Shown: one piece after another, positions 36,101 to 64,000 of the stretch | Position numbering within the stretch: position 1 is the first letter of the stretch | Layout: every line of letters starts with the position of its first letter | Assembly (NCBI GenBank): GCA_022376515.1 | Contig: WTXI01000022.1 | Span: 372,001 to 436,000, forward strand | DNA: 64,000 nt | Reading direction: 5' to 3' | DNA from: Lactifluus volemus | Taxonomy: Eukaryota > Basidiomycota > Agaricomycetes > Russulales > Russulaceae | Position numbers and translations under genes: made by a program | Notes under the pieces: model-generated | Databases searched by the model: none | What the model was told of the DNA's origin: nothing | Seen by the model: only the letters and a program-made list of their open reading frames with translations

Positions 36101-38116
36101 ACGATTGAAGCATATAACGACTGGTTCTTCTCTGTTGCGTTCTCGCCGGACGGACAGCGTATCGCATCGGCCTCGTATGATGGTACGATTCACGTGTGGG
36201 ATGCTGCAACGGGAGAGGCCTTAGCAGGTTCATTTATTGGGCATACCGATTCGGTAGAATCTGTTACATTCTCACCGGACGGACAGCGCATCGCATCGGC
36301 CTCGAGGGACAACACAATTCGCGTATGGGATGCCGCAACAGGAGAGGCCATAGCAGGCCCATTTACTGGCCACACCGATTGGGTTTACTCTGTTTCATTC
36401 TCGCCGAATGGGCGGTGCATCGCATCAGCCTCGAACGACCAAACAATTCGCGTGTGGGATGCCGCAACAGGAGATGTCATAACAGGTCCGTTTACTGGGG
36501 ACACCGGTTCAGCCTTTTGTGCTGTATTCTCGTCGGACGGGCAAAGCATCGCATCGGCCTCGTCTGATCATACGATTCGCATGTGGGATATTACGACAGG
36601 AGCGGTCGTCGCAGGCCCATTTACAGGACACACAAATTCGGTCGAGGCTATTGCATTCTCGCCGGATGGACAGCGCGTAGTGTCGGCCTCGTCCGATCAC
36701 ACAATTCGAATGTGGGATGTCGCAACAGGAGAGCTCGTAGCAGGTCCATTTACTGGACACACAAAGTCGGTCAACTCTGTGGTATTCTCCCCGGACGGAC
36801 TCCGCGTTGCTTCGGCCTCGGATGATCACACAATCCGTGTGTGGGATGCCGCAACAGGAGACACTGTAGTAGGCCCATTTACTGGACACAGCTATCCAGT
36901 CAGCTCTGTTTCATTTTCACCGGACGGGCAGCGTATCGCCTCGGCGTCATCCGATAACACAATTCGTGTGTGGAATGCCGCAACAGTACTAGAGGACCTA
37001 GTAGCGGGCTATGCTGGGCACACCGATTTGGTCCACTCTGTTGTTTTTTCGCCTGATGGGCAATCCATCGCATCAGCCTCATCCGATCATACAATCCGCG
37101 TGTGGGATGCCGCAACAGGAGAGGTCATAGCGGGCCCGTTTACTGGACACACCTCTTTGGTCAACTCTGTTGCGTTCTCGCCCGACGGGCAGCGCATCGC
37201 ATCAGCCTCGGCCGATTGCACAATTCGCTTGTGGGATGCTGTAACGGGAGAAGTCGCAGCAGGCCCATTTATTGGACATACGTCTTGGGTCTCCTCTGTT
37301 ACATTCTCACGGGATGGCCAATTCATCGCATCAGCCTCGTACGATCTCACAGTTTGCGTGTGGGATGCTGCAACAGGAGAGCTCGTAGCAGGCCCATTCA
37401 CTGGACACACCGATTGCGTCAACTCGGTTGCATTCTCACCAGACAGACGGCGCATCGCATCGGCTTCGACCGATGACACAATTCGCATTTGGGACGCTGC
37501 AACAGGAGAGGTCGTAGTTGGCCCATTTACTGGACAAACCAAGTCTTGGTTTAACTCTGTTGTGTTCTCGCCGGACGGGCAACGCATCGCATCGGCCTCG
37601 GCTGATCACACAGTTTGTGTATGGGATGCCGCAATAGGAGAAGTCGTAGCGGGCCCATTTACCGGACACACCTCATGGGTCAAATATGTTGCATTCTCAC
37701 CAGACGGGCGCCGCATCGCATCGGCCTCGTACGATCACACGGTTTGCGTGTGGGATGCCGCAACAGGAGAGGTTGTAACAGGCCCGCTTACTGGACACAC
37801 CGACTTGGTCCTTTCTGTTGCGTTCTCGCCGGGCGGTCAGCACATTGTCTCATCCTCGAGCGATGGCGTAATTCGTGTAGAGAAGCTCGCAACAGAGGGT
37901 ATCGAGAACGTCCATTTTACCGAGAAGTCTCCGATTAATAACGATGGCTGGATATGCGGGAAAGATGGAGAACTTTTCTTATGGATTCCTGTGCTTCACA
38001 GGCCATGTCTTCATCGACCGAACACTGTCTGGGTTGCAGGCAAACATGAGACCCGGATTGATTTCTCGAACTTTGTGCATGGGTTAAATTGGGCTACGGT
38101 ACATTCATCTAAATAG
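33163..38116 (+). CDS. NACHT-WD40 STAND protein (NLR-like), complete
   Basis: Exons 33163-33220, 33278-33669, 33723-33773, 33836-34040, 34097-34240, about 34290-35825 and 35885-38116, roughly 1.54 thousand residues. After a Thr/Ser/Pro-rich linker and a helical region comes the NACHT NTPase: Walker A LGQAGTGKSSIAHEV (about 34450), Walker B ILIVVDALDE (about 34743), then a winged-helix-type region. The C-terminal half has 14 WD40 repeats of about 43 residues, enough for two seven-bladed propellers, and a conserved tail ending FVHGLNWATV. Such proteins sense a ligand through the propellers and signal in heterokaryon incompatibility or non-self defence (family knowledge). The start ATG is supported by the splice at 33220. 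One junction (34240 to the NACHT exon) is a base out of frame with the obvious 49-50-nt intron. Reading through requires a 23-nt intron or another solution, so the model there is open. Confidence 0.85.
36110..37890 (+). repeat. Tandem array of ~129-bp WD40-coding units (14)
   Basis: Fourteen units follow one another within the last exon of the STAND gene. Each encodes a variant of VAFSPDGQRIASAS-DHTIRVWDAATGE-GPFTGHT. Neighbouring units are very similar in DNA as well as protein, differing mainly at a few propeller-surface positions. This pattern is known for fungal STAND genes whose repeats recombine and diversify. Related units occur at the right edge of the window on the other strand. Confidence 0.9.
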
Positions 38117-44567: not shown

Positions 44568-45852
44568 CTACGCTTGCGCATCTGTGGAATGTACCAATCT
44601 TTTACCTGCCTCGCCTATACGCACAACAAGGCACAATTCCCCACTCATCATTTCAAGCCATCCCCTCTTGTAATCAACTTCAGCATATGGGGTCTCCAGA
44701 TTGTTGAAGTCCGTTCGTGGCATCACCCATGTCAATTCTTCATACGCGGGGATCTCGATTCCTCCCTGATCATTCATGAATTCGTCCATGTTATAGTTCT
44801 CGCGGAGAACCACAGAGACGGGTTCGTGGTCGAGGAGAGTACCAAAATGATCCTCATCGTCACCATCGCTTTCATAATAAAGGCATAGGGTCGGTTCAAG
44901 TCCAAGTTTGCGCAGGCTCTGGTAGATAGTTGCATCGATTCCCCTCAGCTGACCGTAGACGGGTCCAAGCCTGTCCTTCACTTGGTACACGTTTCGGAGT
45001 CCAAACCCGAGCGTACCCCCATCGGGGAGGAACTCTGGGTTCTCGAGAAGATCCACGAATCTTGAACCAAACGTCCCCTCTTTTTCTTCTCGAGGAAAGG
45101 AAGGGGGTTCCGACACCAAGTCCTTCACAGAAGCAGGTTCACCCTCATCAAAGTAGAGATTATACGTCGACATGACACGATGGCCGGATGTCACGGGCAA
45201 AACCTCGCACTTGACGTTGCCGAAAAATGCAGCGTAGGCTATCGACTCGGAAGCTGCCGGTGCGGTTGATAGCGCGGTGGAGGGGTCGAACGTCCATTCT
45301 TGGCCGTCCAGCCGAAAAGCCAGAACACCGCCCTCGGAGGATGTTGGAAAGGCAACGACAAGGGAGCCGAACTGGTTTTCTCTGCGTGGAATATCGACGC
45401 GGGACTTGAAGACTGACCCCTTACCTGGGTAGTAACTTAGTGCCTGCTAAGAGTGGATGTGGATCAGACGCACTGTACACGTTGAGCTCGTATAGCTCGA
45501 TGTTTATTTGACGGGTCGAGTCAGTTCCCTCGAGGAGGTAGTTGCGCACGATCTTGATGAGATCAGTGTGATGAGGCACCAGCCATGGGGAAACGCTGTT
45601 GCTTTCAATCTTTCTGCGTTTGCGGCGAGTTTCATCCGCCACTTTATCAGAGATAGTGGGTTCACAAATCTGTGCAAGCTGCTCTAGTTCTTCAGGGGTC
45701 GCATTCGCGAGGTTGACATGTCTATGAATTGAACGTCGGTATGGGGTGGGTGATAGCATCAGCATATACGAACCTAGTGCCTTTGGGGGTTTTGTAAATG
45801 AGATAGAAATGTGATGGGGGAAGTTGCAGCGCATCAGGAAGTTGTGTTGTGG
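44568..45852 (-). CDS. 2OG-Fe(II) oxygenase-like protein, probable loss of iron ligands, 5' end not found
   Basis: Three exons (45852-45774, 45721-45474, 45424-44568) join in frame to about 394 codons, but no initiator exon was found. The sequence matches the fungal prolyl-4-hydroxylase-like family: INIELYELNVYSKGSVFKSR, GSLVVAFPTSSEGGVL and EVLPVTSGHRVMSTYNLYFD. Active members carry an H-x-D pair after FKS/FKP and a distal His in a C-E-H-E-V-type segment. Here the first is R-V-D (near 45410) and the distal position reads KCEV, so both ligand histidines look replaced. The gene may be a catalytically dead relative or a decaying copy. The retrotransposon begins just upstream (about 46.1 kb), which may have removed its first exon. 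Confidence 0.6.
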
Positions 45853-46074
45853 CTAGGTAGGCCTAGGTAGTTAGGGTAGCAGTTGTAGCACTGTAGGCAA
45901 GTGCCAAATTGTAAGACTTCCGTACGTGAGTAGTCTCGAGCGTTAGAAAGTCTGTAGTAGTATAGATTAGATGAATAGATATGATTTGGACTTGAAAACC
46001 CCTTAAGAGCACTACACAACTGAACCAGCCAAAACTGCGATTCTTTATTGTGAATACTTCGTAAAAGGGTAAGT

Positions 46075-46792
46075 CTGCCTTCCATCAGGGAAGGCAGGCG
46101 ATATAAATACATGTTCTACTACCCTAGATCTACAATAATCATAGTCCAATCTGTCGCGATCAAGAGGATCGCGACGTGTTTCACTTATTTATGAAACATC
46201 TTTGTAATTGCACAGTTTTCACGCGCCTCAGTGATCTAGGGTACTTAATATATTTGTTGCAGGTCGCCCTATCGGGGTGCTCTACTATAATCAATGTGCA
46301 GTGCTTGCAGGGTGTCGCAGCGTTGCTTAATTGCTTGTTATCTAGGCGGACCGGGCTGGCTGTGTCATTTGGTGCGAGACGCGACTAAGCTCTCGGGTCG
46401 GACCGCCCGTGCCGTGGGCACGACAATCTTTAAAAGCGATATCCTTTATCGCTTTGTCATATATCAATAAGATCTTAGATCATGTTTCATATGAGGCACT
46501 CTTGTTTCAGTGTGCATAGAATTTTATATCTTAATTGTGAGGCCTGACTACCTCATGTTCATATTCTCTCTGGCTCAAGCTTGGTATGAGCTCGAGCCGG
46601 TCCGGGGGGGCCGCTCACGCGACTTCCGACGTGCTGACGCGTCATGCGACACCAGCCTCGAGCCGGCCCGTGTTATACAGATTGCTTAGGATCGAAGATC
46701 CTAAGCAGTACTTTATCTTAACGCTTCACACGGGTATTTAATAGATCAGATGTGACTTTAGTTAGTATGGCGTCCATTAGGGGCGCCTTACA
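46075..46792 (-). repeat. LTR-like 3' terminal region rich in perfect hairpins
   Basis: It starts on the minus strand with TGTAAGGCGCC directly after a purine tract, as an LTR should. Its far end is not defined because no second copy is present for comparison; 46075 is an approximation. It contains five perfect short inverted repeats: 46075-46097, 46153-46175, 46178-46197, 46434-46454 and 46684-46706. Confidence 0.5.
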
Positions 46793-46984
46793 CCCTCCCC
46801 CACAAGAATAGACTCAGGGGTCAATTGATGTAGATCAGGGCTGAGTGATAACATTGCCGATGATATCATTGACGCAGATAGGTAGTGCGTTTGTAACGCG
46901 GTAGTGAGTACAAAGATAAGATAGGAAAATGAAGGCACAGTCTGAGGCAAGTATCCCCGGGATAAGCTGATTCTTTCGATCGCA

Positions 46985-48868
46985 CTATCCCGGGCCCATG
47001 CTAATATTATCATCATCCCATCCATTGTGGGTAGTTTCTTCTTCGTCTGGGTGGTCGATATGAGTGTACGCGAAATCAGGTGGGGTCATGGGACGTGTGA
47101 TGTCTGCCGTCTCCTCGTGCGATGCAGGCTGTAAGCTTCGCGCCTCCTGGGACTGCTCGAGGGCCGGATTGTAGTTGCCTGGAGCGTCCATATGCACCGA
47201 CTTTAAGATGAATTCAGGGTGGTCTGTAATACACTGGCGTGCAAGGTCTCTTGCCTGCTTCAAGATCAGTGCGTGCGCACTGTCAGGGTGATCAGACAGC
47301 GACATCTCAATGTATGCAGTGGCCCAGAGGCGCCACTGCTCCGCTTCTTCGGGGGGAACTCCGTTCCAAGCCAGAAATCTGGCCACTGATCTAATGCCTA
47401 GCTTGGGAGCAGTGCCGAACACTTCCTCTTCGTATGGTTCGGAGCGACGGGTTTAGTGAATGAGCAGCCGCTCCTGGGTTATCATCTGCTCATACCTTTG
47501 CGGTACTCCGAGGAGTGCCGCGGCCATGCTCAGGAAGTGAGTCCGGAGTGGGCCCTTGTGTATTGCGGAACCGTTGGAGTTCCGGGGCAAGAAAATCAAG
47601 AGTGCACGAGTGCCCTCTATGTGTGCGGTCTGAAAACCCTTTCTGACAAAGGGGATGCCTGTGTATCGGAAGTGCGGGTCCACGGAATGTTTCTGGTACA
47701 GCCAATGCTTCCAGATGTTTATGTGGGTAGTCGGCATGGGTTCCCGGCGATCTGTGGGACTGGTGTGCATTTGTAGATTGTCCCATCACTCAAGGGCACA
47801 GCTATGGAGTGTGCTGCACAATTCTGGGGGCGTGAGGCAGATGTGTTCCGCATAGCCCCTTGCGAATCCGGTCTTTTCAGGTGTGTTTAGGAGTGTGTCC
47901 ACCTCTGATTGTGTGCGCGGGTCTTTAACAGGTGAAATTAATACACCGTTCCTCCCCCCCAAGACCAGGCCCACTAGTGGTATTCTGCCGCCAGCTTTGC
48001 GTGCGGCGATGGCCCCAGGAGCGTAGAATGTCCCGGACCAGACCAGAGTGGTCTGGAAATTCGGCACACCATCCGGAGTCATGGATCCGGTGGCATACAC
48101 ATAGCGCGAGTAGGCGTTAAAATCTAGCTGCCCGTCCGGGAAGGCGGGAATGTCATCATTCGGTGCGCACAGAGAGTTGTCTGGGTGGCACAGGATTATG
48201 GGTAACAGTGCGGGAAACCTGGGCGGAGAAGAGGGGGTGATTAGATCCTGTGCAGGTATGAGTGTGGGTGCGGCGATCGGCAAGCCCGGAGGTCCGCGCA
48301 GTTGTATCCGCGACAGCAGTTGCGGCGGGGCAGAGACTGGGTGGGGGGTCTCGCAACCTCCGATCGTCAATGCCGAATGCACCGAAGTGCATGGCGATGG
48401 ATCTCACCTTGGGAGTTTGCGCGGCTGTTCCCCCTGAGAGTTTGCCATCTGCTCAGTCAGCTCAGTAACTTGGGCGATCGCTCGATCTTTCTGTTTATTG
48501 CACTCTTGCAATGTAAGGTTCAGAGTGTGCACTTGGTCGCACAATTCCACAATGGATGCGAGAAGTGAATCGCGCTCGTCAGTAATGCTGCCGATGATGG
48601 CAGTGTTGCGTGCGTGTTCCGCTTCCTCAAGAGACGGTTCCCCAGCCGCGATGTGCTCCAGGTAGTGGACTGTCCAGTGGGTGCACATCTCACATGTGCA
48701 TGGCTTGTGTGTGATAATGTGGAATTGCGGGTTATGGCACCAGCTTGTCGCTGGTTGTTCATCCAACATCGGATGCGATAAGGTCGCAGCGATACGGCGA
48801 GACAATATCTGTGTGGTCCCAGTGGGTACCGGGATTCGCAAGGTCCGAACAAGAATCCCTGCGATGTT
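46985..48868 (-). pseudogene. Extra ORF (ORF3) of the retrotransposon, broken by three stops
   Basis: Downstream of the integrase, one minus-strand frame stays open from about 48868 to 46985 (some 620 codons) except for TGA at 48404-48406, TGA at 47786-47788 and TAA at 47453-47455. The front part has several Cys/His residues (CHNPQFH, CTCEMCTHW) and then a predicted coiled coil (about 48420-48620). The middle is Pro-rich. The end is a compact domain with ARFLAWNGVPPEEAEQWRLW. No signal peptide or membrane segment is visible, so it is not env-like. An overlapping frame at 48930 starts with a CPKC motif and may be the true N-terminus after a frameshift. I do not recognise the protein family. 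Confidence 0.6.
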
Positions 48869-49033
48869 TTAAGAATGGTTGCCAGTCCGCACTTCGGACA
48901 TGTTATCTGTCGTGTATAGATCGACCCCATTTCATAGCGGGGTAGGTGCCTTAATTAATTAGTTTCGCGATCGCCGAGGCGGTCGCTTCTCATAGATGTA
49001 GATATGTTCGGTTATGAATAGTGCACAAGTGCA

Positions 49034-50074
49034 TCAAGCTTTCGATGCATGGCGGGGTAGATCCAGTGGATCTACCACGCCCATCAGCTCTAGATAATCG
49101 TCGAGTGCTTGTAGATCTTTGCACTCCTTGTATGGTTCCCAAGTAGTGTCACCTAGATTCCAGCATACCTGGAAAGATAACTTATTTCTGTCCCAGTTAT
49201 GGGCTAAGATTGCATCAACAAGCCACTCCTGATCATTAGGCGTGCCAAAGTCATAGAATGGGTGTGCTTCCTGATGCGGGAATAGTGCATCATCATTGGC
49301 GATGTGTGCGCACAACCTGCTCCAATGAAATCGGTTGTGGATCCGTCGCACCTTCAGTGTTGTGGGTAGATCTACTGAATAAGTGGACACCTCTGGGCGT
49401 GCATCAATGACCCTGAATGGGCCAATATATTTAGGCATCAGTTTCCACGCCCGTCCTTTCGGTAGGGATAGATCTGTGGTGGAAACATAGACCAGATCTC
49501 CTGCTTTAAACTGATCATCTTGTTTACGTCTGGTGTTAGCGTAGTGTGTCTGGCAAGCTCTACTTTCAATGATAGCATCATGTGCATCAGCCAAATTCTG
49601 CAGCGCTTTGTTCACAAATTGCTTAACCCCGGGAACCGCGCTTGGCTCCGGGCATGCACCGGGGTTGATGCTTGGGATGTAGCCACTGTTCAGCTCGAAT
49701 GGCGTGAAGCCGGATGAGCTGCTCACGGCCGAATTGATGGCAAATTCAGTCATAGGTACTTTCTCAGACCAGTCATGCTGATCTGGGCTCACTAGTGCGC
49801 GGAGGATCTGACTGATTGATCTGATCGTGCGCTCCAATGCCCCATCCGTTTGCGGATGGAAAGATGTAGACATAAGTAATCTTGTTCCTAGTAATTTGTG
49901 AGTCTCGCACCAAAAGCGAGATGTGAATTTAGAGTCCCGATCTGATACAATAGATTGCGGGAGCCCGTGCAATCGCACAATCTCCCGAACATAGATCCAC
50001 GTGAGTTCGCTTGCCTTAATGGTTGTGCGGATCGGCACCAGATGCACCATCGATGTTAAGCGGCAGATAACCAC
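49034..50074 (-). pseudogene. Integrase C-terminal half with chromodomain
   Basis: Continues the integrase core after an in-frame TAG (50075-50077). It contains SIVSDRDSKFTSRFW (second catalytic Asp) and HPQTDGALERTIRSI (catalytic Glu). The C-terminal part ends in a chromodomain: EWLVDAILAHNWDRN, then WNLGDTTWEPYKEC. In chromoviruses this domain directs integration to heterochromatin. Confidence 0.85.
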
Positions 50075-52411
50075 CTAAAGGTAGTTGTAGCCGCCCGAAT
50101 CTGGAAATGGACCAACAAAGTCCATCGCTATTGATTCCCAGGGTCGGACCGGGATCAGGAGACTGTGCAATAGTCCCAGCACTTTCTGAGTGTGATCCTT
50201 GGTCGTCTGACATACTGGGCATGTTTTACAGTATAATTCCACATCCTGTCCGATGCGTGGCCACCAATAGTAGTGGCGGATATATTCCGACGTCTTTTGT
50301 GGCCCCAGGTGTCCTAACACTTGGTGTGCCTGTGTCAGCACGATCTTGGTTAGGCGTTGCTTATCGCGTACGACCGCCGGAATGCACAGTACGTGATCTC
50401 CAGCCAGATTGTGTGTATACAGCAGATTATTGATGATCGCGAAGCTCTTGTAGTGTTTAATCTTCGCGAGTATCTTTGAGAACAGTGAATCTTTCTGATA
50501 GCCACGTCTCATGTCTTTCAGAAAGATCTTATCACCCTCGACGTGCGGCCGTAGATCTGAGTGATGATCTAATGAATCAATCACTCTGGGATCATCCTGG
50601 GAGTCGCCAGGGGGCAGATCTTTCGTCTGGGGTAGGGGATCCGGTTCTTTGTGTGCAGCAAGCTCAGCCGCCTCACTCTGGCGTGGCTCGATCACCTCTA
50701 CGATCTTGCGCTTAGGCGCGAACGATACGTCTTCATCTGGTCTTTTAGGAGCACGCCGTTGTCTCTTGGGGCGGCTGGCCGTTAGGACATCCTCACTCTG
50801 CATGCTCATCGCGCGATTCTCTTCAAATTGATCCCATGGCAGATCTTCTCCCTCGGGATCTAGCCGAGAATCTGTGTTTACATATTGAGCCGCACTCTGC
50901 TGCTCGTCCCACAGATCACTCTTGTAGTATCGCGAGAGTGCATCTGCTACTAGATTAGATTCCCCTTTAATATAGATGATGTCGAAATCAAATCGCGCTA
51001 GGAATTCCATCCATCGCGCCTGTCTGCTATTAAGTCGGCGTTGAGTTTTGAAGAACTCCAGTGCCTTATGATCTGTAACGATCTGGAGCTTCCATCCTAG
51101 AAGCTTATCTTCCCATTTAAGGAGTGCCTCAAGGATCGCGATCGTCTCCATCTCGAATACTCTGTAATTCATCTGAGCTGAAGTGAACTTCTTCAACATG
51201 AAGCCTGCGGGGCGGCAGGTTTGCCAAGTTTCACCTTGCCCATACATCGCACTGATTCTGGACATTGATGCATCGCAAATTACCCAGATCGGGTCGACAG
51301 ATAATGGGTTGATAGGTTTAAGGATCGGCGATCTACATGCGATCGCCTTAATATTCTCAAAGCATGCTTCATGCAACGGTTTCCAATAGAATGGTTGCCC
51401 ATTCCGGCAGATCGCAGACAATGGACTGGTGTATGCAGTAACATCTGGCATGAAGTGTGCCAGATACTGCACAAGTCCAAGGAATCGCTGTACATCTTTG
51501 TGATTGTGGGGTGTACACCATTCTTGTATCTTCGCCATCTTATCGGTGTCGGCGTGCACTCCCCGATCATCTATGCGATGTCCGAGACAGTCCATGTCGC
51601 TTGAATAAAGATCGCACTTATCTCTTTCGAGATAAAGTCGATGTTTCCTTAGCGTTCTAAACACATGATCCAGATGCGCTTCATGATCTTCCAGTGTATC
51701 GCTGAAGATGAATAGATCATCTAAGTAGGCATACACATAGATTCCAATCACATCTCGGAAGATCGCTGTCATGAGGCGTAGGAATGTGGCAGGCGCATTA
51801 CAATTGCCCTGCTGCATCACGTTGCTTTCGAAGGTCCCGAAGACTGTGGAGAATGCAGTCTTGTGCATGTCTGCGGGATCAACTCGCACTTGTTTGTAGG
51901 CGTTAGATAGATCGATCTTAGATCGGTATCTCGCGCGCGCCACATCCATCCGGATCTGATCTTGATCTGGGAATGGAGTGACGTCCATATGTGTATTATC
52001 ATTCCGTTGGCGACAGTCCATGACTGTGCGTAGACCGCCAGATTTCTTCAAGATGCACAGCAATGGTGCTGCCTGTGGTACCGCCTTAGGGGTCCACCAG
52101 CCATTATCAATGTAGTGGCGAAGCTTCTCTATCAGCTTAGGTCGCATCGCCTCAGCACATCTCGGTAGTCGATAGGAATAGTGCTTATTCTCATCAATCA
52201 AAGGTATTTTGTGATTGATCTCTTGTAATGGTGGTAGTCCAGGTGGGGAACCATTCATAATGTCTGCATACTTCGTGAACCAGCGTTCGCGACAGCTCTC
52301 TAGATCGATCTTATCGGTAATAGTTTTATTTATAGTGTCCATTGATTGGACGGGAATCTCCTTCCGCCCCTCGCTTGGAAGTGATGATGGTATGCCCAGA
52401 TCGCGATGCAT
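50075..52411 (-). pseudogene. Reverse transcriptase, RNase H and N-terminal integrase
   Basis: The RT core has LCILKKSGGLRTVMDCRQ, KIDLSNAYKQ and the YLDD active-site box in YVYAYLDDLFIFS. RNase H follows (VICDASMSRISAM, TDHKALEFF, VADALSRYY). After a variable spacer comes the integrase zinc-binding HHCC module (HQVLGHLGPQ, CKTCPVCQ) and the first catalytic Asp (AMDFVGPF). The frame is closed by TAG at 50075-50077 between the first and second catalytic residues of integrase. On its 5' side it is separated from the protease frame by two in-frame TGA codons. Confidence 0.9.
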
Positions 52412-52486
52412 TAGCGGAGGATTCGCAGATCCGGCCGATAGTCAAAGATCAGTGCGTGAGATCGTTGCTCCGCCAGATGCGGGGGG

Positions 52487-53587
52487 TCAGGCTCGCGCAG
52501 ATCGCTTCCGGGAGATCATCAGATCTTCCTGTCCCGCCGATAAGGTGGGGACTATCTGTCCATGATGAGATAATATGTTGTGGCCGAAATCCATTACTAA
52601 TTCATGTTTTCGCATGAATGGAGTGCCAATGATCATATCATAGCGGTCAATATTGACGACGTCTAGATAGGCATCGTCATCTTTGATCGGGCCAAGCATA
52701 AGCGAAGCTTTCGCTCCGAAATTAATAACAGACCTACTCCCGACCGTGCCTAATTGTAGCGCGATCGGGTTCTCCAACTGAGTAACGTTCAATTTGGCTA
52801 TGCGAGCGAAATCATGTGTAACAGATACTGTGGTGCTTCCTGAGTCCAGCAGGGCATAGGCTTCGAGGCCATTCACTTTAATCAGGGCAGCCATACACCT
52901 GCGATCATTCTTAGAGCTGCGAGGTCGTTCACCGATCACATAAGTTCTGCGCTGGGCCGATCTGAACTCCCGATCGTTAGATTGATCGACATCGCGTGCA
53001 GCTGCAATGCGAACGATTGTGATCTCATCGTTATTGCCATTCTGAATGAATTCATACGTAGGTACTGCTTGATTATTTATCTCATTACGGGCATCTATGA
53101 TCCCGTTGATCTGTGGCCCTTGGACTGTTCCGACGTGCTTAGGCACAGGCCCGATTGAGCCGTTGCTTCTGATCTCGCTTAGATCGTCTTCTTCCGAAGT
53201 AGCTTCGGTTCGCATCTGAACGTCCCCATTATCGTGGGGTAGAGCACTTATCAGTGCAATGAGTGAATGTAGATCCCGATTATCAGTGGGATTATCTGTG
53301 TGCTGGACGATCTCCGAAGCCTTCAGCCGATTCTCCAGCTCTGTGCAATATTGAGCAATCTGTCTGCACTGCAATTGCAGCAGATCAAACTCTGTATATC
53401 TAAGATCGAGATCGAAACGTTCTAGATCGAGGGCCTCCTCGAGGTCCTTGCGCTTTGCGATAGCATGACTGGTAGATAGACGTAGCGCTTCCACTTCTAC
53501 TGTGAGGCGATGAATCTTCTCTTCTAATGCATGATTTAAAGCACTGAGTGCAGTAATGGGGTGCCCCCAGCTTTCCGTGAATGCCAT
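52487..53587 (-). pseudogene. Coiled-coil segment and retropepsin-like protease
   Basis: The N-terminal part is heptad-rich (about residues 10-95). The C-terminal part holds the aspartic protease signature AYALLDSGSTTVSVTHDFA and a second conserved strand MIIGTPFM. It is in the same frame as gag, one codon after the gag TGA, and ends at TGA 52487-52489. Confidence 0.8.
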
Positions 53588-53590
53588 GGT

Positions 53591-55927
53591 TCATCCAAGG
53601 GACACTAGATCCCTCTCGAACTTATCTTGAGATTTCCAGGCGATCGAGTTATTGCCCTCGAGTGCTTTCATGATCACGGTGTGCTCTTTGAAGGTGGCGC
53701 ACACATTGCACCCGCGAATGTGTGTAACACTGAATTGCAGAGTGAATTCAAGTGCATCATGAGGCACCCATGGCGCACGCTCATAGCGCACACGGATCTC
53801 ATTGCGCCAGGGCTCCCAATCCGCATCCTCTAACTGAGGCGGAGGAGTTTCAGAGTGATCTCTGTCCTCGTGCATTGCCCGGAGGTACTCGGTTTCAAGA
53901 TCGTCATCTTCCGATGGCATTGCATATCCATCGTACTCGTCATAGGTTGTCTGATCTTCATCATATTGTGAGCCATCAGGGACGTCGGTATTGTCATCCG
54001 GGACCGATCGCTCTTCTTGCTCATCGCTGCCCCCTGGATCGAGATCAGCGTTGTCTAATTCCTCAGATCCTTCTGAGGGTTTATCAGGCTCGGGTAGATC
54101 GCTCTCCGATCTATCATCGATCACTTGTGCAGCGAACATTTGGCGCTGTGCCGGTTTCTTGTATTGAGGACATTTTGGATTAGTGGCAATATGTCCGGGT
54201 TGGCCACACTTATAACATGTTAGTTTTGAAGTGTTGCCCTTCCCTGATTGATGGGTAGATGTCTGCACTGGCTTAGATCCAGCTTGTTGTGTCTGCGGCC
54301 TTATCTTGCCGCCAGATCTGTTAAGTGGCTTTCTGGCCGACTGATTGCGATCGCGAGAATCCCTGCTATCTCGTGTAGATCTGTGGGGGGTTCCTGCAAT
54401 ACCAGACACTCCCGGTGCACTCTGTCCATCTGGCTTTCGCCTAGATCTGATCAGATGGAATGTTGTCTCGATGTACCGAGCTCTTTCCACTATCGTGCCA
54501 ATAGATCCAGTTTCTGCTGTTATGCCTTCGTGGAGTGCAAGATGATCTCGGATCTCTGCTGGTAATCCGTTGATCAGATGTCGCTTGAATGAATATTCAT
54601 CGGGCATCTGTGCAAGACGTCCTGCCCACATCAGCAGATCGCGATAGAAGGCTGACACACCTTCTTCTTGTGTATATTTGATCTGAGCATATCTGCGCAT
54701 CGCCTGAAGAGCAGTAGCAGTAGTTATGAATGATCTGAATAATCCGACGATCACTGATTCAAATGTCCAATCACGGATCAGTCGTGTTGGACGCTCTACT
54801 TCGTGGATAAACCAATGTTCTGCTTTGCCCTTAAGGCAAGATCCTGTAACTAATACACAATCCCCATCCCTATCATCCGCGGTGAGGCGGCTGATCTTAA
54901 AGTAGCGCAGTAAACCCTGCAACCAGTTATCTAGTGTGTCGAAGTTATCTTCACCTGAGTAAGCCTCTGGCATCTTTGCTCGAAGCCCCTTGATCTCCGG
55001 TAGATCTGGGGGTATTCCCACTAGGGATTCCCGAACGTGTCGGATTAAACTGGCCACCATATTGGCTTCATGATCTACATGCGGGCGTCCCGGCACCATC
55101 GCGGCTGGTACCGGGGGCATGTGAGGGGCCACAGGTGCAAACGCTGGCGGCACCGGAGGCATGTGCGGTGCAGCAGGATTAATAGGTCCGTGAACCGGGG
55201 GAGCTCCTGCGAAGTGGGGGGCTTGTGCTTGCGCTTGTGGTGCTCTCTGATCTAATGCGGGAGGCAGCATGTTTACGGGCTGCGCTCCGTACTGAGCCTG
55301 ATTGGCCGCGTACTGAATAGCTGCTGGATATACCGCCTGAGGCGCTACAGGTGGTCTTAGCTGTTGCTCGCGTGCCCTGTGCAGTCTCCGAGCGTAATCC
55401 ACATCCAGTGCATGCGGATCTGGAGCTGGCACGGCTATTGGCGTGGCAGGTCGTGGTGGATCTGCTCTTTCTGGGGTCGGCGTGTGTACGCGCTCTGATA
55501 TCTGGTGCCTGTCCTCGTCCTGAGGATCATCTGGATTGTACTGGTCTCTTTCTGATCTTGCCCAGGGAGGGGGGCCACCCCTTCCTCGGGCAGGTCGGTG
55601 CTTTACTTTAGCTCTAGATCTTCTGATATCAGCTTCGCACTGTTCCCAGATCCGATCGCTTCGCTGGCGCGCCCGATCTAAGCGCATTGCCTCCTCGTCC
55701 AGGGGCATTTCACTGAGATCTGTCTCCTCTAACTTGATTGCGGGTGTCTGAGAAGCAAATTGCGCCTGGGCACTTTGTTGCCTGCTGTAATCTGCGGTTT
55801 CCTCGTCGGATCCACGATCTCTGTAGATCTCTTGGACCGCTGATGTTCGCGCCGAGATCAGATGCGATTCTTCACTATCAGTCGCAAGGACAAACCGATC
55901 CAGGCTCTGTTGTGTCTCCTGAAACAT
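53591..55927 (-). pseudogene. Gag polyprotein with zinc knuckle
   Basis: About 778 codons. A Pro/Ala/His-rich segment precedes a retrotransposon gag capsid region (LDNWLQGLLRYFKISRL, FYRDLLMWAGRLAQM). A CCHC zinc knuckle follows, CYKCGQPGHIATNPKC, near 54160-54215, and then an acidic tail. It ends in TGA at 53591-53593, with the protease frame continuing in phase. Confidence 0.88.
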
Positions 55928-55972
55928 TTGTTTCGAGAGATCATACTGTTCGCGGGCTGATCTAAAGCGTCA

Positions 55973-56578
55973 CTAGAGGTCGTCTTGCTCTTCCATCCAC
56001 GCTTCTAGCTCGAACGTAGCTTTCCTTAGGTGATTGCCCCATCTGAGCACTTCCTGACCTAGCTCTCTGAGTTCTCTGTTAGTGCACGCCTGGGGCGATT
56101 CACTTTGATTACTTTGCACACTACCAGATGCCCTCTGCGATGGTCCGTAGTCTGCGCGTTGCTTTCCCTTGTCCCGGCGCGGCTCGGGGGTCGGGAGTCT
56201 TTCCTCTGGCTCGCCGTAGTACGCATAAGTACTCATTGCCGCTGAGAGCGGGGCAAAACTTGTGTGTGCAGTCGCAAAGGACTGTTCTGTTTCAATCTGG
56301 GGATCATCCAGTATCTCGCGGATCTGGGGCCCCTCTGATTTCTCTGGGATGTGGGGAAAGCTTCCTTCCGCTGAAGGACTTATATTTATCTGTGGGTCTT
56401 CCGCAATTGGTGTCAACTGTGTTAACTCAGAGCGTGCGGGGGCTTCAGCCTGAACTGCAACTCTCTCCGGTTTCTTTGGGGGTTGCTCTTCACTAGGAAG
56501 TGCAGGTTTGCTCTTTTCCGTGCGGCGTGCATGGGCAGAGCGGGTGTTTTTTGTGGGGGGGTCTGTACTGGAGGACAT
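55973..56578 (-). pseudogene. Gag N-terminal ORF
   Basis: 201 codons from an ATG at 56578, polar and Glu/Pro-rich, ending WMEEQDDL followed by tandem stops TAG and TGA (55975-55970). It lies in the same frame as gag and begins like the N-termini of fungal gypsy gag proteins (basic, Ser/Thr-rich), so it is probably the front of the same polyprotein. Confidence 0.55.
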
Positions 56579-57230
56579 TGTGTGTATTCCAATGAAGTCG
56601 TGTCACGGTTCACAGGGACCGTGGCTCGGAGTGAGCTTCAATTAATCAATGGAGGACGCGCAGGCAAGTTCCTGTGAAGGATAGACTTGACTGTGCGAAC
56701 TCTCGGTTCTGCTATCGCGTGGGGCGGGTAGTACGGGCCGGCGCACGCGATGGTCGGAGTTACCGTTCCCAAAGAGGATAGACGGTGGCAGATGGACGAA
56801 GGATGATCTGTAGGTTCAACCGCAATGCGGGCGCGAGTGTATTTGGAATGCAAGGGGTGCTCGCCTTCCAAGGACACTCGTGGGAGGTTGAACTAAGGTT
56901 TGTGCGAAATGGAAGGGAAGGGATTAGACAGTCCTTCACCCTCGATTTCGTACAAGGTTCAGAGCGTCTGTGAGCTTATTTACAAGGCGTAAACAAGCAA
57001 ACAGATGTTCTGATTGTGGCGCGAAGGTACCTTAACCAAAGGTACGAAGAGGGGGTGCACAAGAAAAAGAGAGGGAGTTTGAGTGTCAAGCAACAACTGT
57101 GATTCTCGACGAAGCTGAAGCTGGGGCTTTAGCTCGTCCATAGGGCCCTATTTATGCGTACAGAGGGCCAGCCAACTATCCTACAAAGGTCACAGTAAAG
57201 TAGCGGAGTCAAGACCATTGACTAAGGACC
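56579..57230 (-). promoter_or_regulatory. Promoter-like region upstream of the retrotransposon gag
   Basis: On the minus strand a TATA-like CATAAATAGGGCCC (about 57143-57156) lies between the TGASTCA array (57231-57329) and the first ATG at 56578. The order of activator sites, TATA and leader would suit transcription of the element. It is not a copy of the left LTR-like region, so the identity of this segment as a 5' LTR is unproven. Confidence 0.35.
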
Positions 57231-57329
57231 TGAGTCAGTTCTGATGACTCAAGAACTGACTCAGTGTGTCTGACTCAAGATCTGAGTCAAGAACGCTGAC
57301 TCAAGACTTGAGTCATGATCCCTGAGTCA
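57231..57329. repeat. Array of eight TGASTCA (Gcn4/AP-1-type) sites, 26-bp period
   Basis: Perfect TGASTCA heptamers start at 57231, 57245, 57257, 57271, 57283, 57297, 57309 and 57323, so the spacing alternates 14, 12, 14, 12, 14, 12, 14. The array is a short minisatellite of a 26-bp unit holding two sites. TGASTCA is the known binding site of Gcn4/Cpc1 and AP-1 bZIP factors. Binding here is inferred. Confidence 0.85.
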
Positions 57330-57971
57330 AATACACGTCCAAAACGGCGATGCACAGCCCCTAGAAGTCAAACAGAGGGGGCTGGCCAAGGAAAGGGGTC
57401 CTAGGTCATAACACAAGTCGAAAAATGGACGGAAAACAGTAAGAAATGGGCCGGGTGGCCCGCATAACCGTAACAGAAACGGCATCCTCTTTTTTTTACA
57501 ATCCATACATTTCTCTGCATGAATTTGCCCATTTTTTCAATGCTTGATAGTTTTACTTCACACCCCTGTATAATGCAATGTTCACAACTTGAATACCAAA
57601 AAATACATCTGTGTGACTCATTTATACCTAGTTCTACAGAGCCCTTTGATAAAAACAATAGGCTCTTGAGTGCTCTGTAGGAGGTTCCAAGCTACTGAGG
57701 CCTACATGTCCTACACGTGCTACAATGTCTACTTAGGAACCCGGTTCCTATGGAGCTGGGACCAGTTTCCTGATGCGATCCGCCTACGAAGGGCGGTTTA
57801 TGGACGATTGACTCTTGTAGAGGGGCAAGTAGCTTCTTTAAGTCTTCCGACTCACTGGCAGGGTCGACTTGGATGACGGATTTGTCATGACCTGAATCTG
57901 TATGCTCGGAGTCCGACATTGCAGTACTTGTAAGATGGGCACTGGAAAGGAGCTGAGTGTCTCCTATTCAT
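57330..57971. other. Spacer between the site array and the inverted-repeat element
   Basis: No supported gene. A minus-strand frame starting at 57919 is Ser/Asp/Glu-rich at its N-terminus and may be a remnant exon. It lies just outside the terminal repeat of the next element. Confidence 0.35.
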
Positions 57972-57984
57972 CAGCAAAATGTCC

Positions 57985-58255
57985 GAGCAGCTTATTTCTA
58001 CTTAAACTCACTTAAAATTTTTTTTTAAGTACTCCTAAGTACTTTAAGTACTTTAAGCACTTTAAGTCATTTTAAGACAAGTCGGCCTCCAGGAAATTGC
58101 TTATTTTCACTTATTTTCGCTTATTTTCGCTTATTTTCTTTTTTTTTTTTACTTAAAATTGGGTCAATTTCAACATTTGAGTGAGTTTCAAGCATGTTTA
58201 AGTGAGATTTAAGCACTTTTAAGAACATTTTAAGCAAAATATATTTGAGACTACA
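57985..58255. repeat. Left subterminal TTAAGT/ACTTAA motif array
   Basis: Dozens of short CTTAA/TTAAG copies at irregular 8-20-bp spacing, plus a TTATTTTCGC tandem near 58105-58138. The same motifs fill the opposite arm, as expected for subterminal transposase-binding repeats. Confidence 0.6.
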
Positions 58256-58263
58256 CTACAACA

Positions 58264-59523
58264 TTAATAACTAGGACAAGGCTCATGGGAAACACAGGAG
58301 GCACAGGAAACATGGAAGCCACAGGAGATGCAGGACGCGATCTCAAACTCATGAACTTGATTGTAGAGGCAAAAAGAATAAGGGAGCAGTGCTGAAAAAA
58401 AAGCTATATCAGTACACTCGAGCACCCATTTAGAGGTTGCCACTCACAGTCATCGTCTGCTGCGTCATACAGCTCAAAGCCTTTGAGCGAAAACCGATAC
58501 CGCAGTTCATACCACGGGCCACGAATTACCTTGGCCAATGCAAGGAAACCGCCTTCGTAAAGGAACGCAGCAAGGTACTTTGCCTTGAGCGCAGGCACTT
58601 GTACCACGTCTAGAGAACCAGCTAACGTGCAGGGACTGAGCGTACAGATGAAGGTAAGGACTGTGGCTGGTGCAGAAAGGCACACGCCAATGCGAGACAT
58701 TTGCTGTTGCTGAAGGTGCGAAAATTTTGCGCTGTCGACGAGGGCCGCGACATCCACCATCACCTTTTTTGCATCCATGATGACTGCATCCGTTCCAGTA
58801 GGTGCCGTTGGCCCGCGGTTGAGGATAAGTGGGGCAAGTAGAAGTGGATATCTGTTGAACAGGTCTAATGAGATAATCTGTGAATTGCATTCGCAGACGT
58901 GGATCACGCTCTGAAAGGCTTTCTTTGTTCCCAGCTGTGAAAGCAGCATGCTTCGTTAAGTCATGGTCCGAGCGAGAATGCCAGGAGGGCTGGGTTATCG
59001 AGCGGGGTCATGGACTGTCGCTGTGCATGTGACAATTCCGGGTCTGGATCGTTCTGGCAGACTATCGGCATGTGCAAGACTGGCAGTAACCAGCTCTGTG
59101 CAGCGTCGCTCAAACGCATCCCATTCAACAGGTCACTTACGCTGAAGGTTTTTTACAATCTCGATCGAGCCAGGATGTTCAGCACAAAATACCCCGTAAG
59201 CTTTGAATGAAGCGGCCTTTTAGAGAGAATTGTAAGCATCAGCCAACCGTTTAGACACGCTTCCGGATGAAAAAGCACACAAACAAACATGAAATATTTC
59301 AAAGATGGCACAAAAAAAAAGCAAAACACTGACTGACCTGGGCAGTGAACAACGTAGCCACGCTTATCAAGGCGGTTTCGAAGTGCTCCTCGCCATCATC
59401 ACAATCAGTACTAGGCAGATCTACCTCATAATCGTCGGAAAATTCCAGAGCATTGAGACCAGGAACCCAACCAGAGAGTCGTACGGCATCGATCAGCATG
59501 CTATGAAAGACTTCATGGAGCAT
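58264..59523 (-). pseudogene. RhoGEF (DH/PH) gene fragment captured in the transposon
   Basis: Pieces of a fungal Dbl-homology RhoGEF occur in gene order on the minus strand. These are YGVFCAEHPGSIEIVKNLQ (59200-59145), WDAFERRCTELV (59130-59095), FTDYLIRPVQQI directly followed in another frame by NRYPLLLAPLIL (58890-58830), LAGSLDVVQVPALKAKYLAA and WYELRYRFSLKGFELYDAAD (58640-58460), and after an intron LLPYSFCLYNQVHEFEIAS. In intact family members the DH core reads IKPVQRICRYPLLL; here a deletion breaks the frame exactly there. A TGA also follows NLQRK. RhoGEFs activate Rho/Cdc42 GTPases; this copy can hardly do so. Intron remnants remain, so it was copied from DNA rather than mRNA. Confidence 0.7.
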
Positions 59524-59639
59524 CGGCCGTCCCAGTTGGCCTCACGAACCATCGTAAGCTCGGTTGCGGGTGCCGCTGTCTGAGCAGATGCATGCGACGA
59601 CATTCGCAGACAGGTGACAAAGTCATAGAATGACAGGCG

Positions 59640-60210
59640 CGGGAAGCGCAGGAGGTGGTGGAGGCGGTGGCGGCAGCGGGGCAGGAGGCGGCGGGGCAGG
59701 AGGCGGAGGCGGAGGCGAAAAAAGAAGAAAAAAAGTCAGGACGCGTTAGGTTTGGGCAGGCAGTGTGACAACATACCGGGGAGGTGCAGAACGCGTCTGC
59801 TCGGGCAGCGTGACACCGTGGACCACCCAGCAGTACCAGTGGGTCCAGGAGGTGCGCGATGTGGAGGCGAATGCGGCGGAGGCGGCGGAGAAGATGGAGG
59901 AGACGGAAGTGGCCCAGGAGGCCCAAGAGGAGGTGGTGCAGGTGGTGCAGGCGGCGGCGCAGGAGAAGGCAGCAGAGGCGGAAGGGAAAAAAAGTCAGGC
60001 ACGTTGGGGTGGGGCAGGCAGCATGACAATGTACCAAAGAGGGTGTAGAAGACGCCGACGCAGGCAGCATGATGCCAAGGACCGCCCGGCAGTGCCAGTG
60101 GATCCAGGAGCCGCGCGATGTGGAGGTGGCGAAAGCGGTGGAGGCGGCGTGGAGAGAGAGAGAAAAAAGGCAGGGATGCTGAGACGTGTGGCGGGGCAAG
60201 ACGGCGAGCA
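59640..60210. repeat. GC-rich block with ~240-bp imperfect tandem repeats
   Basis: Two clear units (about 59745-59985 and 59995-60180) share the order GGGCAGGCAG, TGACAA-TACC, CAGGAG-GCGCGATGTGGAGG, a GGAGGCGGC stretch and AAAAAA-TCAGG; a partial unit precedes them. Long open frames on both strands here are low-complexity (Pro/His/Leu or Gly/Glu) and are not called as genes. Confidence 0.55.
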
Positions 60211-60399
60211 GTGGTGGTGACAACAGAGGCGAGACAGCGACAGAGGGGGACAGAGGGAGGGATAGGCGCAGACAACGAGAGGCACGAAAATGATGAGGCA
60301 AATGAAAATCAACATCAAGCAAACAAGAGTAAACAACCGATGCAGGTGCACCAGAATGACTTAGCAAAAATTTCGTGACTTTGGCAAAAACTTCGCGAC

Positions 60400-60870
60400 T
60401 TCACAAAATTTTCAGTGTGCTTAGCTAATTATGTGATAATTAAGCAACTTTAAGCAAATTTAAGCAACTTTAAGCAACTGTACATGTTTAAGTAACAATT
60501 AAGCAAACACAATAACTAGTAACCAGTGAACCAATTGTTTTAAGTGGTTTTAAGTGACAATTAAGCGACACCTGATAATCAAGCAACTGCTAAGTGCAGT
60601 AAGCAGTCAACAAGATGTTTTAAGTGCAATTAAGTACACAGACATGACACTTAAGCAGTTGATTAAAAATCATGTGACCACTTTGCTTAAAAAATGGGCA
60701 TCACTTAACTTGCTTAATTGTGCTTAAATGACTTAATTGTCTTAAGCTTCGCTTAATGTACTTAAAACTACTTAAAAAGCAATTTTAAGCAATTTTAAGT
60801 ACATTTTAAGCATATTTTAAGCACATTTTAAGTAAAACTTTTTAAGTGACTTTAAGTAACTTTAAGCTGC
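60400..60870. repeat. Right subterminal TTAAGC/TTAAGT motif array
   Basis: About 470 bp densely filled with TTAAG/CTTAA motifs, the inverted counterpart of the left arm. It runs into the right terminal inverted repeat at 60865-60888. Confidence 0.6.
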
Positions 60871-60886
60871 TTGGACATTTTGCTGA

Positions 60887-61109
60887 TGTTTAAGGCCCGG
60901 CGACTGCGACGATCGCCCCGAGTCATGACGTCATGATGTAGGGGAAACTTTCTAGGAAATCATGTGCTGCCGACTCCTTTCCAGAGGGTGTAGCTACTGT
61001 ATATGTTAGTACGTTGAGAGCGAGAAAGGATGAAGAGGAGGATGAGCCCAAGGGGAAACTGGGCTTGAACTAGGCGATACCTCTGATTGACCCGAATCGG
61101 GTGCCTACA
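60887..61109 (+). repeat. Possible solo LTR (TG...CA, 223 bp)
   Basis: Begins TGTTTAAGGCC and ends GGGTGCCTACA, with a TATA-like GTATATG near 61001 and a palindromic CRE-type site ATGACGTCAT at 60926-60935. No target-site duplication or second copy is visible, so this is a suggestion based on end structure and promoter-like content. Confidence 0.3.
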
Positions 61110-62607: not shown

Positions 62608-64000
62608 CTATTTAGATGAACTGTGAACGTATACCGTAGCCCAATTTAATCCATGCACAAAATTTGAGAGGTCCACCTCCGTTCTATCTTTGCCGGCAAT
62701 CCACACAGTCTTAGCTTTATGAACGTATGGCCTGTGAATGAGGGGAATCCACAAAAGGAGTTCACCATCTTCCCCATACATCCATCCATCACTATTGATC
62801 GGGAACTTGTCCATAAAATCATCTTTCTCAATATCTTCCGCTCCGAGCTTCCCTAGATGAATCGTATGATCTCGTAAGGCTGAAGTAATAGGCCCATCAA
62901 GGGTGGACGCACCAGGGTTGATCGTTTGAGTGAGTCCGGTAGACGAGCTCACAACATCCTGTCCTGTTGTGACATCCCACATGCGAATCGTACAATCTGC
63001 CGAGGCCGAAACGATCCGTTGCCCATCTGGTGAGAATGCAACCGAGCTGACAAAATCAGCGTGTCCAATAAATGGGCCCCCTACGGCCACCCCTGTTGCA
63101 GAATCCCACAAGCGAATTGTGCGATCGTGCGAGGCCGATGCAACGCACCGCCCATCTGGTGAGAATGCAACACAGATAATAACATCAGTGTGTCCATTAA
63201 ATGGGCCCACTACATCTTGTCCTGTCTCAGAATCCCACACACGAATCATGGCATCTCCTGAGCCAGAGGCGATTCGCTGCCCGTCTGGTGAGAATGCAAC
63301 AGATTCGACCCGCTCAGTGTGACCAGTAAACGGGCCTATTATGACCTCTCCTGTCGCAGCATCCCATATGCGAATCGTGTGGTCCTCCGAAGCCGACACG
63401 ATGCGTTTCCCGTCTGGCGAGAATGCAACAGAGCAGACCTCATCAGTGTGTCCGGTAAACGGGGCCACTACAACCTCTCCCGTTGTGGCATCCCACACGC
63501 GAACCGTGTGATCGAACGAGGCTGAGACGATGCGTTGTCCGTCCGGCGAGAATCCAACAGAACTGACCGCTTCGGTATGTCCAGTGAACGGGTCCACCAC
63601 AATATCTCCTGTCGTGGTATCCCACACACGAATCGTACGATCGTGCGAGGCCGAGGCGATCCGCTGCCCTTCAGGCGAGAAGGCAACAAAAATGACCCAA
63701 TCGGTATGACCAGTAAACGGACCCGCTGTGACCTCTCCTGTTGCGGCATCCCACACACAAATTGAGCAATCTGCAGAGGCCGAGGCTATCCGTTGCCCGT
63801 CGGGTGAGAGTGCAACAGAAAATATCAATTGGGTGTGTCCAGTAAGCGTGGCCCCTGCCCCTCCTTTTCTGGCATCCCACACGCAAACCGTGTAATCATT
63901 TGAAGCCGATGCAATGCGCTGCCCGTCCGGTGAGAGCGCAACAGAAAATATGCAACCGGTATGTCCGGTGAAAGGGCCTGCTACGATCTGCCCTGTTGCG
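62608..64000 (-). CDS. WD40-repeat C-terminal part of a STAND protein, runs off right edge
   Basis: One open frame from the window edge to a stop at 62608 encodes eight clear WD40 repeats of about 43 residues (for example VAFSPDGKRIVSASEDHTIR) and a ninth degenerate one. It ends with a tail closely matching the NACHT-WD40 gene at 33163-38116: INSDGWMYGEDGELLLWIP, then FVHGLNWATV. The N-terminal NACHT part should lie beyond base 64000. It is a third member of the family in this window. Confidence 0.85.
   Translation of the reverse strand, partial: ATGQIVAGPFTGHTGCIFSVALSPDGQRIASASNDYTVCVWDARKGGAGATLTGHTQLIFSVALSPDGQRIASASADCSICVWDAATGEVTAGPFTGHTDWVIFVAFSPEGQRIASASHDRTIRVWDTTTGDIVVDPFTGHTEAVSSVGFSPDGQRIVSASFDHTVRVWDATTGEVVVAPFTGHTDEVCSVAFSPDGKRIVSASEDHTIRIWDAATGEVIIGPFTGHTERVESVAFSPDGQRIASGSGDAMIRVWDSETGQDVVGPFNGHTDVIICVAFSPDGRCVASASHDRTIRLWDSATGVAVGGPFIGHADFVSSVAFSPDGQRIVSASADCTIRMWDVTTGQDVVSSSTGLTQTINPGASTLDGPITSALRDHTIHLGKLGAEDIEKDDFMDKFPINSDGWMYGEDGELLLWIPLIHRPYVHKAKTVWIAGKDRTEVDLSNFVHGLNWATVYVHSSSK

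Follow-up and report, generated by a model that had tools for sequence, protein, structure and literature searches.

Which retrotransposon do eight Gcn4-type sites serve when they stand just upstream of a gag gene, and what would they do there? The locus bears on a standing question, namely whether stress wakes transposable elements by direct binding of a host regulator or by failed silencing. The DNA analyzed, referred to here as the window, is a stretch of 64,000 nucleotides from the basidiomycete Lactifluus volemus, and all positions without a contig name are counted from its first letter.

The window contains eight exact TGASTCA heptamers, at positions 57231, 57245, 57257, 57271, 57283, 57297, 57309 and 57323, with start-to-start spacings of 14, 12, 14, 12, 14, 12 and 14 bp, and TRF calls a 26-bp period over 2.3 copies. 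The original prediction of eight perfect sites in strict 14/12 alternation, with a 26-bp period and a chance expectation far below one, was thus confirmed: from the dinucleotides of the window, 0.015 heptamers are expected per 99 bp, and the probability of at least eight in one such stretch is about 7 × 10−20, by which chance clustering is ruled out. The window total of 13 TGASTCA is close to the shuffle mean of 10.3 (13 or more in 26 of 100 shuffles), so that only the clustering is unusual. Gypsy 5' regions elsewhere in the genome are richer in the heptamer: they hold 38 TGASTCA over 93.5 kb, equivalent to 26 per 64 kb and roughly 2.5-fold the expectation for the window. By our estimate, this base rate would lift the chance of the array by about three orders of magnitude, leaving it still negligible. 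The register runs two positions further left, to TGACTAA at 57219 and GGAGTCA at 57205, the latter being probably no site in most copies.

57231–57329, minus strand: array of eight exact TGASTCA sites with 14/12 spacing, in the U3 of a family A LTR; conserved among copies
57219–57225, minus strand: ninth, variant in-register site TGACTAA (TTAGTCA on the minus strand); one mismatch, invariant in 60 of 60 aligned LTRs
57205–57211, minus strand: degenerate in-register position GGAGTCA; GAAGTCA in 49 of 60 aligned LTRs

The genome searched was the window's own (62.4 Mb in 628 contigs). With positions 57140–57400 as query, 40 matches at 96–100% identity and two weaker pieces were obtained (40 of 390 candidates scored), and several of the matches are paired on one strand, about 7.4–8.4 kb apart. 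Comparison of copies showed that the array lies in the U3 of an 875-bp LTR of a Ty3/gypsy chromovirus, here called family A, the borders of which are sharp at 56601 and 57475 and the aligned copies of which end in TGT...ACA.

56601–57475, minus strand: whole family A LTR, 875 bp, without target duplication at the window copy; borders set by copy comparison

A three-site pattern with gaps of 7 and 5 gave 988 + 995 matches in the genome and none in a reversed-pattern control. Since a full array holds six such three-site matches, division gives about 330 arrays genome-wide; the TATA block of the LTR gave 367 matches at up to three mismatches. With some 330 LTR-borne arrays, the outcome that had been named as fatal to the original prediction, a one-off array with no link to copies of an element, is not what was found. 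The LTR sample consisted of the window LTR and 68 loci, i.e., 69 rows, two of which (L092 and L074) are parts of the same LTR, L092 being a fragment. Both ends were found in 49 of the 69 rows, at lengths of 849–937 bp. Of these 49, 17 are solo LTRs with a 5-bp target duplication, 13 are 5' LTRs next to the primer site TAAGCTGAAGCT and 16 are 3' LTRs next to a polypurine stretch, while the remaining three, which include the window LTR, have neither duplication nor primer site nor polypurine stretch. Family A thus shows the TG...CA ends and short target duplications by which LTRs are recognized. For the window copy, insertion as a simple solo LTR, with the 5-bp duplication that this would leave, was rejected, as its flanks, AGTCG and GAAAC, differ.

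Other clusters of the heptamer are smaller. In the nineteen 5' regions near other gypsy copies (L104–L122) that gave the base rate above, no eight-site array was found, and no 130-bp stretch holds more than three sites. Genome-wide, triple clusters with gaps of 8–18 were seen at four places, one of which resembles a family A variant. At positions 2683–2715 of locus L106 (G000:C379:232500-237500), three TGASTCA with 14/12 spacing stand upstream of a different gypsy copy and may be the remnant of a family A LTR. Differently spaced groups of three or four TGASTCA were seen near C491:11426-11479 (L123; identical letters at C602:12372-12425) and near C596:1193147-1193191 (L124); lying away from long frames, these could be host promoters or other repeats.

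What kind of element carries the LTR can be read from a copy with its gag and pol. In one family A copy, Pfam matches above cut-off were obtained for gag (PF03732), RVT_1, RNase H, the integrase zinc-binding and core domains, SH3_Tf2-1 and Chromo, with a weak protease match below cut-off; its pol frame (1363 aa) and gag frame (at least 538 aa) are both open in their present state. Judged by its sequence, family A fits a Ty3/gypsy chromovirus, with gag, the order protease, RT, RNase H, integrase, and a C-terminal chromodomain. For its gag, 7,991 candidates were scored, and two distant homologues emerged, one at 32% and the other at 27% identity. Twelve family A LTR pairs were compared, one of which, at 23% difference, is no true pair; three of the 11 true pairs have no substitutions. 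By its copies and LTR pairs, family A is taken to be multi-copy and recently active.

In all 13 true family A 5' LTRs, an 11-nt stretch next to the LTR (AAGCTGAAGCT, preceded by a single T) is exactly complementary to AGCTTCAGCTT within the LTR, and AGCTTCAGCTT stands at a fixed distance of 34 nt past the start of CATAAATA. In a control, random 20-mers reached a match of 11 nt or more anywhere in 3 of 2000 draws. In self-primed elements of the Tf1 type, such a complementary stretch is the RNA 5' end. Family A is therefore predicted to prime itself in the Tf1-like manner, and from the 11-nt complementarity and the Tf1-like arrangement the RNA start is predicted at position 57122. The TATA-like box that was said to lie downstream of the array was located on the minus strand of the same LTR, and all eight exact Gcn4-type sites fall 109–207 bp upstream of the predicted start.

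57149–57156, minus strand: TATA-like box TATTTATG (CATAAATA on the minus strand), read from the letters; 34 nt to the self-primer stretch
57112–57122, minus strand: AGCTTCAGCTT, predicted RNA 5' end (start 57122) and self-primer; complementary to the 11 nt adjoining the true 5' LTRs of family A

A candidate protein for these sites is encoded by the host. At C223:1117175-1117297 a Gcn4-type bZIP was found with the basic region KRLQNTLAARRSRKRKL, the best PDB matches of which are GCN4 chains, at an E value of 2 × 10−4 over a short match. Six-frame searches of the genome for bZIPs gave few loci, and the list is incomplete because introns break genes in such a search; several other bZIPs are also encoded. 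GCN4 of Ganoderma lucidum is reported to bind GA[C/G]TCA (PMC10653791), and another target given for Ganoderma GCN4, GGTGAGTTTCCA, differs from the array heptamer (PMC12016525).

What was established in silico comprises the array and its position within the LTR, the geometry of the promoter, the number of copies, the heptamer conservation and the host Gcn4-type bZIP. The reading preferred here is that the array probably serves as an upstream activating sequence in the U3 of family A for the host Gcn4-type bZIP. In the mechanism we infer, a dimeric bZIP activator, most likely the host Gcn4-type protein, would bind the TGASTCA sites upstream of the RNA start and so switch family A on; amino-acid or nitrogen starvation should then raise family A transcription.

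The identity of the protein is the part of this reading most open to a competitor. TGASTCA is the Gcn4/AP-1 form of the site, the Yap1 form being TTACTAA. The array might be a promoter enhancer read by another bZIP, such as a Yap1-like oxidative-stress factor, in which case the signal would not be starvation. The invariant TGACTAA/TTAGTCA, which we take to resemble a Yap1-type site, speaks for this, as do the several other bZIPs encoded in the genome and the fact that other bZIPs can bind related sites; however, each array holds eight exact TGASTCA, and a Gcn4-type bZIP is present. The different-bZIP explanation is thus considered unlikely, and the protein that reads the array appears, from motif and gene content, to be rather more probably the Gcn4-type one. 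It is a good deal less probable that the array acts in some other way, by binding a repressor or silencing factor, at the RNA level (the transcript also carries U3 at its 3' end) or in the replication of the element. Conservation indicates constraint and not its sign, which leaves room for such roles, but a known activator motif at 109–207 bp upstream of the predicted start fits an activator best.

Whether the heptamers are constrained at all was assessed from copies that were chosen independently of the array. This unbiased set comprised the window and copies for which an exact TATA-block match was the sole criterion of choice, giving 43 rows, of which 40 were used (L046, L053 and L060 were dropped, as the left LTR end was not found). 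Changes were counted by parsimony on a tree in non-CpG columns, with the TATA block excluded from the "other" positions. Non-center heptamer positions showed one change in 48 and spacer positions 14 in 37 (binomial p of 8 × 10−5), with two changes in the eight heptamer centers and 691 in 573 other LTR positions. On shifting the heptamer mask along the LTR, the unshifted mask had the lowest rate among 750 shifts. In the wider set (60 of the 69 rows, some of them found via the array itself and hence biased), the values were 0.083 changes per site for non-center heptamer positions, 0.97 for spacers and 1.80 elsewhere. In that set the heptamer center differs in five cells, two being C/G swaps and three C to T, so that changes at the center do not always keep the consensus.

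Eight exact sites are present in 56 of the 69 rows, and in 35 of the 43 rows picked by the TATA block. Of 451 spacings between neighboring exact sites, 444 are 12 or 14 bp, six are 26 bp, with a damaged site in between, and one is 13 bp. Diverged copies carry four to six sites and differ in phase-preserving blocks of about 26, 40 or 52 bp; the array would thus gain or lose sites mostly as blocks in which the 14/12 phase is kept. In the 40-copy set, the indel density of the array was not below that of the rest of the LTR, and hence selection on exact spacing is not claimed.

These counts also bear on the idea of a neutral minisatellite that contains the heptamer by accident. The 26-bp period, the different numbers of sites among copies and the unreduced indel density of the array would all suit such a repeat, but the heptamers change far less than the spacers of the same repeats and the unshifted mask ranks lowest, and the neutral minisatellite, by now highly improbable, was rejected on the ratio of 1/48 to 14/37. 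Selective conservation of the heptamers is supported by the comparison, and the array is very likely a U3 promoter element under selection that serves a bZIP.

The gag-pol next to the array belongs to a different family, here called family G. The window pol is 81–100% identical to the members of this small family, and the pol copies that are flanked by array LTRs (e.g., C20, C17, C146 and C53:18185) are only 27–29% identical to it. Four close G copies (L015, L016, L021 and L023) match the window up to 56603 and then continue into an LTR of their own of about 906 bp, which persists in the window as the 3' LTR.

49034–56578, minus strand: gag, protease, RT, RNase H, integrase and SH3/chromo-like frames of family G, assigned by Pfam and family membership; not the owner of the array
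45906–46792, minus strand: family G 3' LTR, its outer end about 20 bp short; 95% identity to the L015 LTR
56600–56601, minus strand: hybrid junction of the family A LTR and the family G primer site; the four close G copies differ here

No TGASTCA was found in the six G-type upstream loci that were counted (L015, L018, L019, L020, L022 and L023), and a search of the genome with the 56600/56601 junction, allowing up to three mismatches, gave a single occurrence. At the window junction, matches to the family A LTR are of 7 nt only, with no 11-nt match, and the hybrid is thus no normal replication unit; in family G, matches between primer site and LTR are likewise of 7 nt only. The possibility that the array drives the adjacent gag-pol as its promoter enhancer, suggested by an LTR placed 22 bp ahead of the gag ATG, correctly oriented and exactly at the LTR/primer-site border of G, is practically negligible and was rejected, given the different LTR of the close G copies, the absence of TGASTCA in the loci counted, the unique junction and its short primer match.

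The search for the array beside related gag genes, which had been proposed as a check, therefore turned against the expected association. That the sites lie upstream of a minus-strand retrotransposon gag was correct as to position and wrong as to ownership. Equally, the proposed tie to element transcription holds insofar as the array sits in a retrotransposon promoter (an LTR in hundreds of copies, with a TATA-like box and a predicted start), but the adjacent gag is not part of the element served. The window LTR is, on this comparison of copies, best described as a stray family A copy beside the gag-pol of another family, and proximity to a gag does not prove ownership. The exact A/G join may have originated by template switching during reverse transcription, or by nested insertion and later rearrangement.

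Morillon and others reportedly studied Ty1 and Gcn4 in 2002. To our knowledge, no such TGASTCA array is known in Tf1, and tandemly repeated motifs (the BII boxes) are found in Tnt1. In Saccharomyces cerevisiae, Gcn4 is one of about nine factors listed as binding the Ty1 promoter, which extends into the gag frame (PMC8585004). Ty1 and family A are alike in having a retrotransposon promoter with Gcn4 sites, binding being predicted for family A. However, Ty1 uses many factors and a promoter that reaches into gag, whereas family A has a phased array of a single motif inside the U3 of a gypsy chromovirus. Family A resembles the self-priming Tf1/sushi-type chromoviruses in its Gag, protease, RT, RNase H, integrase and chromodomain and in the 11 nt beside the LTR that are complementary to the predicted RNA 5' end, from which its priming is deduced. 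Tnt1 of tobacco is described as a high-copy element expressed under stress from its LTR promoter (PMC3316501), and its U3 is reported to be a hypervariable, separately evolving module (PMC1838419). It belongs to another superfamily and kingdom and differs in factor and motif, and, in contrast to its hypervariable U3, the family A heptamers are strongly conserved.

Gcn4 among the Ty1 promoter factors and stress-responsive LTR promoters from Tnt1 are thus already in print. Literature searches for fungal LTRs with Gcn4 sites, with subscription papers largely outside their coverage, gave no report of such an array among the titles listed. What appears to be new is the form, i.e., one heptamer repeated eight times plus a variant, in strict phase and conserved against a drifting background, in a predicted self-primed gypsy chromovirus. 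As a clean and conserved single-motif array is combined here with a predicted start and a predicted activator in a recently inserted element, the question of direct binding or failed silencing becomes directly testable. The 330 or so arrays would amount to about 2,600 sites, perhaps a fifth of the genome's TGASTCA when extrapolated from the window composition. A bolder and rather doubtful extension is that the host's general amino-acid control is the main on-switch of family A and that the spread arrays, many of them in solo LTRs, act as ready-made Gcn4 enhancers or as a Gcn4 sink, reshaping the host starvation response.

The hybrid lies inside a larger insertion. The flanks 45300–45831 and 57775–57968 are contiguous at C73:59377-60099 and, in more diverged form, at C595, which indicates that 45832–57774 is an insertion with CATCAGG-like ends and a 2–3-bp duplication; both empty sites bear only on this block as a whole.

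45832–45905, strand not assigned: left end (CATCAGGAA...) of the larger insertion around the hybrid; from the empty site at C73 and repeat copies elsewhere
57476–57774, strand not assigned: right end (...TTCCTGAT) of the same insertion; from the empty site and repeat copies

Within the block, extra open frames were seen on the minus strand at 46985–48868, between the end of pol and the G 3' LTR, in DNA common to other G copies; 47789–48382, the sole frame scanned there, gave no Pfam match. The ends of the insertion resemble those of the neighboring element at 57969–60888, which is DNA transposon-like, with terminal inverted repeats of 55 nt that are 85% complementary (CATCAGCAAAATGTCC...), TTTAAGC/TTTAAGT subterminal repeats and two ORFs (58404–58949 and 59513–60367) without a Pfam match. 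Further away, arrays of a 129-bp repeat occupy 36130–37845 and 62929–63966, and the frame at 62608–63882 encodes a WD40 protein.
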